A stretch of 64,000 bases of DNA from Actinomycetes bacterium (GTDB taxonomy: Bacteria; Actinomycetota; Actinomycetes; Streptosporangiales; Streptosporangiaceae), in contig JAJYTW010000001.1 of assembly GCA_021792855.1 (NCBI GenBank), positions 1-64,000 on the forward strand, in the 5' to 3' direction. Of this stretch, positions 14,747 to 18,626 are shown in pieces. Within the stretch, counting starts at the first letter, position 1, and each line of letters opens with the position of its first letter. Position numbers and translations under genes: made by a program. The notes under the pieces were generated by a model. That model was not told the origin of the DNA. It did not search any database and worked only from the letters and a program-made list of their open reading frames with translations.

Positions 14747-14926
14747 TCAGTAGCCGGCCGGCTGCTGGTTCGACTGGCTCTTGGTCTTGGCCGGGGCTGC
14801 GTGGCCCGGCCCGCAGGCGGCCAGTCCGACCGCCATCGCGGCGACCGCGATCGCGCCCGCGATCCGCCGCGCGATCCGCGCGGAGCGCGGATGGACTACT
14901 GCTGTCTGATTCATCTTCGTATCCAT
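14747..14926 (-). CDS. Tiny predicted lipoprotein (59 aa)
   Basis: Basic N-terminus, hydrophobic core and lipobox AIAVAAMAVGLAAC; begins 23 nt after the MFS-ASST stop, same strand; alternative start at 14914. Confidence 0.6.
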   Translation of the reverse strand: MDTKMNQTAVVHPRSARIARRIAGAIAVAAMAVGLAACGPGHAAPAKTKSQSNQQPAGY

Positions 14927-14949: not shown

Positions 14950-17925
14950 TCACCCGAACACCCGCGACGTGCCGAGCACGCGGCCACTGGCGTCCAGGGC
15001 CTGGATCTCGTACGCGTGGTAGCCGGAACGGACGGCGATGGCCGTCTCGAAGCCCGACTTCGGCGCGGTCGCGATCGGAGCGAGGTTGCCCGGGTCCCGG
15101 CCGCCGAGCACGCGCCAGGACCGCACCCGCGTCGCGCCGTTCCAGCTTGCGTAGACCGTCGTCACGCCGTGCGCGCGGCGGACGGCGCCGCTGGGCGGAT
15201 ACAGCGGAAGCCCGACCCAGGTGGCCACCTGCTTGGCCCGGTAGCTCAGGTCGGGTCCCGGCAAGACGCCGTCCAGCACCTTCCGGCCGGACCGGGTGAA
15301 CTCGGTGAAGTACGGCAGGTCGCCCCAGCCAACGAAGACGTTCCCGTTCGGCAGGATCTGGGTGCTGCCCATGTAGGCGGCCGACTCGCCGCCATGCTGG
15401 TAGGCGGCCACCAGGCGGACGGTGCGGGCAGCCGGATCGAGCTTGAGCAGCATCGCCCGGGACGGCCCGGCCGGTGCCAGGTAGGTGCCAGCGCCGGTGA
15501 TCTGGCAGCAGTTGTCGTTGAACATCGCGACCGTGGTCGGACTGGGCATGGTGACGTCGTGCTGCCACTCGAAGGTCGCGTCGGACGGGATGGCGAAGCT
15601 CGAGTGCTTGCCGCCCAGGGTCCAGTCGATCTTTCCGGTAGCCGGGTTGATCAGGTACGCGGCCCAGGTGTTCCGCATCGACACGATTAGCCTGCCGTTC
15701 CCGGCCAGGCTGATCGAGTTCACGTGGTAGACGTCCCATGGGAAGCCGTTCACCGGCGGGTTGGCGTAGGAGTCGGTCAGCGGAATATGCCGGTAGGCGT
15801 CCCAGGACCGGACCAGCCGGCCGGTCTTCAGGTTGTACTCCTGCACGGCCGAGTCCACGATCGCGCCGTTCGCCGCCCCGCCGTACCTGGTCAGGTTCAT
15901 TGGGACGTTCTTGTTCGCGGTCACCCAGGCGTCCTGACCGTCGATGACCAGCGAGTGCAGCGTCAGCACCCAGCCGTCCGCGCCCTTCAGCGTCGCGATC
16001 GTCTGGTAGTGCTGATTGACGACGACGTACTCGCCGCTCTCGGTCGCGCCGGTGCTGGTGATCGTGCCCTGCCACCAGGACAGCGCGGGCTTGCCCTGGT
16101 AGGTCTGCAGCGCCAGGTCCGAGGCGACGTCATCGACCGGTACCGGCCGGAACCAGACCGGGCTCAGGTCGTTGTTGACGATCAGCGGCCCGCTCTGGCC
16201 GATCATCGGATGCTGGGTCAGGTCGTAGAAGTTGGTCAGCAGGATGTATCCGGGGGCGAGGTCCGACTTCTCGGTCGCGATGTCGGTGCCGAGCTTCGGC
16301 GGGTGCAGGCCGGGAGCGGACACGAAGGTGTAGGCGCCCCTGGCGGTGTAGGCGCCGATCGGCGCCGCCGGCGCGCCCGCCGCGGTGGCGTCCACGAGCA
16401 CGAACACGACGATCAGCACGCCAGCGCCGAGCGGCAGCCGAAGCCGGGCACGAAGCGGGCGGCCCGCGTGGTCGTGCGCCGGGAGCAGCACCCCGGCGAC
16501 CACGGCGGCCGCCGCGGCCAGAGCCGCGCCGATGAAATAGGCGAGCCGGAATCCGCTGGTCAGCGCCTGAGACACGACCTGGTTCTGACCGATCAGATGG
16601 CTGGTGTACTGCGTTGCCATCGAGATCAGCACGGCGATCCCGAGCGACCCTCCGACCTGCCGGGAGGTGTTCACCAGGCCGGAGGCCAGGCCGGCGTTGC
16701 CAGCCCCGGCGAGTTGGGTCGCCGCGATCGTGGACGGCACGACGGATAGCCCGATCCCGGCCGCGACGAGCAGTCCGGGGAGCACCACGAAGCCGAGCGC
16801 GCTGCCGCTCGGTCCGATCCTGGTGAAGATCAGCATGCCGCTGGTCAGCAGGCACAAGCCGGTGGTCAGCACCGCCCGGACACCGAACCGGCCGATCAGC
16901 CGGTGCGCCTGCCCGGCGGACAGCACGACCATCAGGGCCATCGGGAAGAAGGCCAGGCCGGCGTCCAGCGGCGACAGCCCGAGCACCTGCTGCAGGTACA
17001 GCGAGCTTACGTACCACATCGGGAACAGTGTCGCGCTGAACAGCAGCACGATCAGGTTCGCGATCCGGAGTGGCCGGGTGAACGCGCCGGGCGGCACCAG
17101 CGGCGCCGCCGCGAGGCGGGTCTCGACCACCGGGAACATGGCAAGCAGCGCGACGCCGGCCACGATCGGGATCAGCGCCAGCGGGGCGGTCCAGCCCACC
17201 GCGCTGGCGTTGACGATCCCGTAGACCAGCACCATCAGGCCGCCGGTGAGCGACAGCGCGCCGCCGAAGTCGAACTTCGCGCCGGCGCCTTCCTTCCGCT
17301 TATCGGTGATGACGATCATCGCGACGATCGCCGCTGCGATGCCGACCGGCGGGTTGATCAGCAGCACCCAGCGCCAGCCGAATTCCTGGGTGATGATGCC
17401 GCCGAACAGCGCGCCGGCCGCGCCGCCCGCGCCGTTCATCGCCCCCCACAGCCCGATCGCCCGGTGCCTGGGCGGGCCGGGCGGGAACGCGGAGGTGATG
17501 GCGGCAAGGGAGGCGGCCGCCATCAGCGCTCCGCTCAGTCCCTGCACCGTGCGGGCGGAGACCAGCATGAACTGGCTGATAGCGGTGCCGCCGGCCAGCG
17601 AGGTGAGCGCGAACAGGGCGAGCGCCGTGCTGAGCGTGCGCCGCGCTCCGAACTGGTCGGCGAACCGCCCGCCCAGCATCAGGAACCCGGCGAACGCGAT
17701 CGCGTAGGCGTCCACCACCCACTGCAGGTTGATGGCCGAGAAGCCGAGGTCGGCCTGGATCGACGGCAACGCCACATTGACGATGGTCAGGTCCAGGATG
17801 ACCATGAACTGCGCGACGCAGGCGACGAGCAGCAGCCACGACTGGCGGGAGGAACGGATCGTCCCCTCGGCCGGCAGCGACTGCCGCTCGGCCCCGCGCC
17901 GCGGTACGCCGGCGCGAATGCTCAT
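14950..17925 (-). CDS. Fusion protein: N-terminal DHA2-family MFS exporter plus C-terminal arylsulfotransferase (ASST) domain
   Basis: Uninterrupted ORF. MFS: MVILDLTIVNVALPSIQADLGFSAINLQWVVDAYAIAFAGFLMLGGRFADQFGARR. ASST: YHVNSISLAGNGRLIVSMRNTWAAYLINPATGKIDWTLGGKHSSF, FEWQHDVTMPSPTTVAMFNDN. Start at MSIRAG overlaps the upstream gene by 4 nt. Confidence 0.88.
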   Translation of the reverse strand: MSIRAGVPRRGAERQSLPAEGTIRSSRQSWLLLVACVAQFMVILDLTIVNVALPSIQADLGFSAINLQWVVDAYAIAFAGFLMLGGRFADQFGARRTLSTALALFALTSLAGGTAISQFMLVSARTVQGLSGALMAAASLAAITSAFPPGPPRHRAIGLWGAMNGAGGAAGALFGGIITQEFGWRWVLLINPPVGIAAAIVAMIVITDKRKEGAGAKFDFGGALSLTGGLMVLVYGIVNASAVGWTAPLALIPIVAGVALLAMFPVVETRLAAAPLVPPGAFTRPLRIANLIVLLFSATLFPMWYVSSLYLQQVLGLSPLDAGLAFFPMALMVVLSAGQAHRLIGRFGVRAVLTTGLCLLTSGMLIFTRIGPSGSALGFVVLPGLLVAAGIGLSVVPSTIAATQLAGAGNAGLASGLVNTSRQVGGSLGIAVLISMATQYTSHLIGQNQVVSQALTSGFRLAYFIGAALAAAAAVVAGVLLPAHDHAGRPLRARLRLPLGAGVLIVVFVLVDATAAGAPAAPIGAYTARGAYTFVSAPGLHPPKLGTDIATEKSDLAPGYILLTNFYDLTQHPMIGQSGPLIVNNDLSPVWFRPVPVDDVASDLALQTYQGKPALSWWQGTITSTGATESGEYVVVNQHYQTIATLKGADGWVLTLHSLVIDGQDAWVTANKNVPMNLTRYGGAANGAIVDSAVQEYNLKTGRLVRSWDAYRHIPLTDSYANPPVNGFPWDVYHVNSISLAGNGRLIVSMRNTWAAYLINPATGKIDWTLGGKHSSFAIPSDATFEWQHDVTMPSPTTVAMFNDNCCQITGAGTYLAPAGPSRAMLLKLDPAARTVRLVAAYQHGGESAAYMGSTQILPNGNVFVGWGDLPYFTEFTRSGRKVLDGVLPGPDLSYRAKQVATWVGLPLYPPSGAVRRAHGVTTVYASWNGATRVRSWRVLGGRDPGNLAPIATAPKSGFETAIAVRSGYHAYEIQALDASGRVLGTSRVFG

Positions 17926-18626
17926 GAGCCTGCTGTGGCGGACTGCTGCTGCCACCGCGTGACGGCGTCGAGGCTGGCGTCGATGATCCGGCCGGCGAAC
18001 GTCGCGGAGTCGTTGACATGCGGCAGCGGCGCCTGCGGAACCGGGACCTCCAGGAACGCGCAGAGCGGTTCCCAGCCGTCTGCGGGCGACCATTCGAGCA
18101 GTCGGTCCTTCGGCACGAACTGCCGGACCGACTCGTTGTGCCCCTCCATCGCCCGCGCCATCTCGTCGGCGTCGAATTCGCCCTCAAGGGTTCCGAGCAG
18201 ACCGCTCTTGCGCCACATCGCCGTCAGCAGGTCGATGTAGTTCTGCCACCGCGGGTCGATCCTGGCCCGCGCCTCGGACATGTAGCGCTGGAGCGAGTCG
18301 CCGTAGAACACGTCCCAGATGGTGTCGCGCATGCTCCGCGCCCAGGCGGCGCCGTCGCGCACGCTGAGCAGGACCTTAGCGTCCGGGAACGCGGTGACCA
18401 GTTCGCGGTAGAAGAACGAGCCTGGCCAGTCCACGGTCGACTGGCTGTCGCCGAACATCGCGGTCCAGTCGACGTTGGTGTCGAACGCGTCGGCCCAGCG
18501 GGGCACCAGATCGAGGTCGGACAGGATGTTGACCATGTGGTAGCAGGGCCCGAAGCCCAGCATCTCTAGCGCGATCTTCTGCGTCAGGGTAGCTGTCCGG
18601 GGGAGGCCAGCTCCGATGATTTTCAT
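17922..18626 (-). CDS. Sulfotransferase family protein (Sulfotransfer_4-like)
   Basis: IIGAGLPRTATLTQKIALEMLGFGPCYHM (PAPS 5'-phosphosulfate loop-like), LLSVRDGAAWARSMRDTIWDVFYGDS; AAGGAG SD before ATG at 18626. Confidence 0.88.
   Translation of the reverse strand: MKIIGAGLPRTATLTQKIALEMLGFGPCYHMVNILSDLDLVPRWADAFDTNVDWTAMFGDSQSTVDWPGSFFYRELVTAFPDAKVLLSVRDGAAWARSMRDTIWDVFYGDSLQRYMSEARARIDPRWQNYIDLLTAMWRKSGLLGTLEGEFDADEMARAMEGHNESVRQFVPKDRLLEWSPADGWEPLCAFLEVPVPQAPLPHVNDSATFAGRIIDASLDAVTRWQQQSATAGS

Follow-up and report, generated by a model that had tools for sequence, protein, structure and literature searches.

An actinobacterial MFS exporter-arylsulfotransferase fusion that looks like a built-in relay for sulfation outside the cell

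Why would a drug exporter and a sulfotransferase be joined in one polypeptide, and on which side of the membrane would the enzyme lie? These questions are raised by a gene in a 64,000-nucleotide stretch of DNA (the window; positions 1 to 64,000 of contig JAJYTW010000001.1, assembly GCA_021792855.1) from a soil actinomycete of the family Streptosporangiaceae. An earlier note, made from the letters alone, had described a full major facilitator superfamily (MFS) exporter and a complete-looking arylsulfotransferase (ASST) in one unbroken open reading frame (ORF), and its coordinates are off by a few tens of bases at most. The gene, in which TM15 denotes a fifteenth transmembrane helix, is as follows:

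14950..17925, minus strand: MFS-TM15-ASST fusion gene, 991 residues, ATG start to TGA stop; the same single ORF occurs in 14 other assemblies

The MFS-ASST fusion is real. Pfam places MFS_1 at residues 36-429 (E 2e-44), Arylsulfotran_2 (PF14269) at 610-885 (E 1e-37), and Arylsulfotrans (PF05935) at 688-873. On the minus strand the frame runs from beyond 18093 to the stop at 14952-14950, and translation likely begins at the conserved ATG 17925, which shares an ATGA with the TGA that ends the upstream gene. GC at third codon positions is 0.87-0.97 across the whole gene, junction included, and coding periodicity is unbroken there. The same uninterrupted architecture is found in 14 further Actinomycetota assemblies (loci L075-L079, L081-L086, L092, and L093, plus L080, whose ORF includes a run of N; all were read from stop to stop), so that the failure foreseen in the earlier note, two genes joined by an assembly error or a frameshift, does not apply here. 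Loci L092, L081, and L076 are those of genomes G002, G003, and G352, and three cut or broken loci (L087, labelled Chlamydiae, L096, and L097) were left out of the count. We also rejected the production of two proteins through an internal start: across the junction, no start bearing a ribosome-binding site is conserved, L086 lacks internal starts in this region altogether, and the scan, which covered part of the L076 junction, gave one weak candidate each in L079 and L093. We found no paper describing an MFS-ASST fusion in the open-licence PMC literature, although one may exist elsewhere, and to that extent the note's impression of novelty holds.

An AlphaFold2 model of the fusion, built with 73 sequences, has a mean pLDDT of 91.1 and a pTM of 0.86 and features 14 + 1 helices followed by an all-beta domain. 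Foldseek searches with this model returned structures of Cpz4, an ASST of caprazamycin biosynthesis, at ranks 1-2, followed by the exporters EfpA, QacA, and EmrB. The exporter half is:

16480..17925, minus strand: DHA2-type MFS exporter (PF07690), residues 1-482, 14 predicted transmembrane helices

Both hydropathy and the model give this half the 14 helices characteristic of DHA2 drug:H+ antiporters. It scores 210 bits against the EmrB subfamily profile TIGR00711, below the cut-off of 230.2, whereas its score against MFS_1 is far above the cut-off of that profile; we therefore regard it as a DHA2-like MFS protein and do not file it as a member of the EmrB subfamily.

The enzyme half and its predicted active-site residues are:

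14953..16380, minus strand: Cpz4-like ASST domain, residues 516-991, predicted extracytoplasmic (PF14269, PF05935; Cpz4 structures 9kf4/9kf6)
15955..15957, minus strand: His657, counterpart of His252 of Escherichia coli AssT by order and motif; invariant in the 15 fused proteins and 33 ASSTs
15724..15726, minus strand: His734, equivalent to AssT His356, in an H-x-N motif with Asn736 (AssT Asn358)
15673..15675, minus strand: Arg751, equivalent to AssT Arg374
15559..15561, minus strand: His789, the expected sulfated nucleophile, aligned directly to AssT His436 (PDB 3elq)

The domain scores 130.7 bits against PF14269, for which the curated cut-off is 27. It is predicted to adopt the propeller fold of solved Cpz4, matching 9kf4 and 9kf6 with TM-scores of 0.91-0.92 by target length and 35-36% identity. 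To align the fusion with E. coli AssT, whose active-site roles have been described (PMC13426309), we used a profile of 33 ASSTs. The alignments of fused proteins, ASSTs, and AssT show that the expected nucleophilic histidine and its His, Asn, and Arg neighbors are all retained; the chain of 4p04 has N in the column of His789. The earlier note had pointed to AssT; the nearest characterized enzyme is Cpz4. Elsewhere in the domain, a vicinal Cys-Cys pair (residues 806-807, window 15505-15510, minus strand) is invariant in all 15 fused proteins and predicted to lie on the outer face.

Between the two halves lies the extra hydrophobic segment that the note had pointed out, which the model renders as a helix:

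16381..16455, minus strand: TM15, residues 491-515, predicted internal signal-anchor, located where stand-alone relatives carry a secretion signal

Hydropathy peaks across the fused family concur with the model on 14 + 1 helices, and the predicted loops follow the positive-inside rule, with 3.0 Lys/Arg per inside loop versus 0.6 per outside loop. Four stand-alone sister ASSTs from solirubrobacterial genomes begin with N termini resembling classical secretion signals, and these signals stop right before the domain begins with its shared P[IV]GxYT motif, which is also where TM15 of the fusion ends. Because the nearest stand-alone relatives carry a secretion signal exactly at the position of TM15 and loop charges alternate, the ASST domain is predicted to face outside, as the note had proposed. 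ASSTs adjoining the fusions bear twin-arginine (Tat) lipoprotein-like signals. Together with those of the sister proteins, these suggest that the enzyme was extracytoplasmic before the fusion and that the fused gene probably kept the secretion signal as its TM15 anchor.

What the earlier note overlooked, in an otherwise largely correct account, is the partner gene immediately upstream:

17922..18626, minus strand: PAPS-dependent-type sulfotransferase gene (PF17784, Sulfotransfer_4; PAPS, 3'-phosphoadenosine 5'-phosphosulfate), sharing a 4-bp overlap with the fusion start; the only PF17784 copy found in the genome

In one branch of the fusion family, a PF17784 gene precedes the fusion in every locus whose contig reaches far enough (the window, L075-L079, L081, L092, and the broken L096). 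The two genes overlap by 4 bp (ATGA or GTGA) in seven of the eight species with a complete junction, L076 instead having a 111-bp gap. In genomes G001 and G004 the fusion was not found, and PF17784 is likewise absent from both. The closest solved relatives of the PF17784 protein are SgdX2 and 9kf1/9kf2, whose PDB numbers adjoin those of the Cpz4 entries, and the source genome also encodes an adenosine 5'-phosphosulfate (APS) kinase.

In caprazamycin biosynthesis, sulfation proceeds in two steps, from the PAPS-dependent Cpz8 to Cpz4 (PMC4257720, PMC6731281). At least eight other genomes, Actinomadura and Actinoallomurus among them, mirror the gene set of that pathway, with a stand-alone ASST, a type III polyketide synthase (PKS), and a PF17784 gene occurring together:

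L098, L099, L129, L131-L134, L142, and L146: ASST + type III PKS + PF17784 cassettes in genomes of the Actinomadura/Actinoallomurus type (L098 and L134 apparently come from a single genome)

Judged by sequence, the window presents one part of this arrangement, a PAPS-dependent-type sulfotransferase beside an ASST. The note had supposed action without PAPS; this fits the outer step and not the whole pathway, since the overlapping gene probably makes the donor.

How widespread is the fusion, and did it arise once? It is present in two of the four other genomes of the genus, and thus in three of five with the source, as well as in another genus of the same family. Identity to the window protein is 67% in G002 and 59% and 65% for the two parts in G003. 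A scan of GTDB species genomes added metagenome-assembled genomes (MAGs) labelled, in their records, as Acidimicrobiales, Solirubrobacterales, Streptosporangiales, and others. In a quick-method ASST tree, a single clade with support 100 contains the fused proteins, truncated L087, and the four solirubrobacterial stand-alone proteins, and inside it the fused set plus L087 has support 93; the MFS tree unites the fused set at 100/100. The two halves also co-vary, their pairwise identities correlating with r 0.87. Since each half forms one clade, these sequences are most simply, and likely, explained by a single fusion event and later spread or loss. Among 398 genomes from across the phylum, no MFS-ASST fusion was found outside this clade; other long ASST ORFs among them were considered as candidates, and the N-terminal parts of those retrieved are non-MFS. 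On plasmids, the only ASST matches are below 40% identity, the best being an unfused gene. Locus L084 (712-2, minus strand) holds a second, unfused copy of the same ASST subfamily with a secretion signal (55% identity, cut at the end of the locus contig). It is separated from the fusion by a few kb, and one genome thus has both forms.

The architecture, the predicted topology, and the overlapping operon are well supported, and we consider an operon-encoded sulfation relay across the membrane the best, and a probable, explanation of them. In the cytoplasm, the PF17784 enzyme would move sulfate from PAPS onto a small phenolic carrier. The DHA2-like exporter would then expel the resulting aryl sulfate, as we favor, or alternatively the acceptor. 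The Cpz4-like domain, brought to the outer face by TM15, would load the sulfate onto His789 and pass it to an external acceptor such as an exported metabolite, an envelope glycan, or a lipid; extra ASSTs beside the fusion gene may draw on the same donor pool. We infer the activity, the identities of carrier and acceptor, the direction of transport, and the hand-over between domains. The relay is favored on the basis of the domains, the model, the Cpz4 match, the kept catalytic residues, the topology, the co-varying halves, the PF17784 overlap, the APS kinase, and the PKS cassettes. More tentatively, it could be a dedicated trans-membrane sulfation machine, in which PAPS-derived aryl sulfate exported by the MFS half is handed straight to the fused ASST. 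Such a machine would provide an activated sulfate carrier outside the cell, where PAPS is unavailable, for envelope glycans or exported metabolites. A conserved gene pair couples an exporter to both a PAPS-dependent-type and a PAPS-independent enzyme, so that the passage of activated sulfate across a membrane becomes directly testable.

Several observations weigh against the relay. DHA2 exporters are broad in substrate, so the cargo cannot be read from the sequence. We found no type III PKS beside the fusion or elsewhere in the source genome (93% complete), and therefore rejected such an enzyme as a local donor source; nor would one expect the carrier that the caprazamycin pathway makes. Moreover, the contig stretches before the fusions of the solirubrobacterial branch (L083-L086 and L093) gave no PF17784 gene. 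This last point also favors a different arrangement, in which the cargo of the exporter is the sulfate acceptor and the donor has another source, such as environmental aryl sulfates; we consider it unlikely, because a PF17784 gene overlaps the fusion in the other branch and other genomes carry ASST-PKS-PF17784 cassettes. Slightly less doubtful is a detoxification unit, in which toxic phenols are sulfated by the PF17784 enzyme and pumped out by the exporter, while the outer ASST only recycles sulfate or shuffles it among external phenols, with no dedicated acceptor. Several fusion MAGs are labelled bog, fen, or palsa, and toxic phenols are plentiful in peat; the exporter is of a multidrug family, and no obvious biosynthetic cluster surrounds the window gene. 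Detoxification, however, needs no ASST, whereas the fused ASST has kept every catalytic residue over deep divergence and is often adjoined by additional ASST copies.

Two further readings concern the placement of the enzyme. Signal peptidase might still cleave TM15 and release the ASST, the fusion merely coupling expression. TM15 does align with cleavable signal peptides, and most members have small residues at -3/-1 (e.g. AFA|G, ATA|G, AVG|G), yet L081 has Arg at -3 and the predicted helix, at about 25 residues, is long for a cleavable h-region, which leaves release improbable in our view. That the fusion is an assembly artefact, or that the ASST lies on the cytoplasmic side, is very improbable: the source genome is a fragmented MAG of 380 contigs, but 15 assemblies agree, and the secretion signals of relatives and the alternation of charge both speak for an outer location.

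Around the fusion, and at other ASST loci, we made further observations. Just downstream of the fusion, a 55-residue ORF with a lipoprotein-like N terminus, RRIAGAIAVAAMAVGLAACG, has no Pfam match (window 14747-14914, minus strand). Elsewhere in the source genome (L037 4250-7313, contig C323), two more ASST genes with twin-arginine lipoprotein-like signals lie in tandem, adjoined by another MFS gene. Genome G352 (L073 7009-19930, contig C542) combines tandem Tat-signal ASSTs with two Sulfotransfer_1-like genes, a Sulfotransfer_3 gene, a tryptophan-halogenase-like gene, and a nonribosomal peptide synthetase condensation-thioesterase protein, a region that looks like a cluster for a sulfated, possibly halogenated metabolite. 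Close to the secreted stand-alone sister ASSTs of L089-L091 are genes for DegT aminotransferase and for polysaccharide synthesis (Polysacc_synt_2), a hint that the acceptors may be glycans.

How does the fusion compare with known systems? On the exporter side, EfpA, QacA, and EmrB share the 14-helix MFS fold and 22-30% identity with the MFS half (Foldseek), and we know of no C-terminal enzyme domain in any of them. In LplT-Aas type MFS-acyltransferase fusions, an MFS carrier is joined to an enzyme that acts on its cargo; there the enzyme is cytoplasmic, whereas the MFS-ASST fusion has a predicted outer-face enzyme and an odd fifteenth helix. On the enzyme side, E. coli AssT shares the aligned residues His356, Asn358, Arg374, and His436 but belongs to Pfam family PF05935, is soluble and disulfide dependent, and comes without a transporter. 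It is a periplasmic ping-pong enzyme, and for most PAPS-independent sulfotransferases the natural acceptors and physiological roles are unknown (PMC13426309). The PAPS-independent Cpz4 (9kf4, 9kf6; one entry among the top Foldseek matches is titled as a reaction intermediate) resembles the fusion in fold, in family over the whole ASST domain, and in catalytic residues; its solved chain, however, lacks an exporter, and it serves a nucleoside-antibiotic pathway with a triketide-pyrone donor. As in the Cpz8 to Cpz4 sulfation, a PF17784 enzyme, whose closest solved relative 9kf1/9kf2 may be Cpz8, adjoins a Cpz4-like enzyme here, but without a type III PKS and with the ASST fused to an exporter and predicted outside. 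Against this background, the fusion would show how an export pump can acquire an outward-facing enzyme, the former signal peptide being retained as an additional helix.
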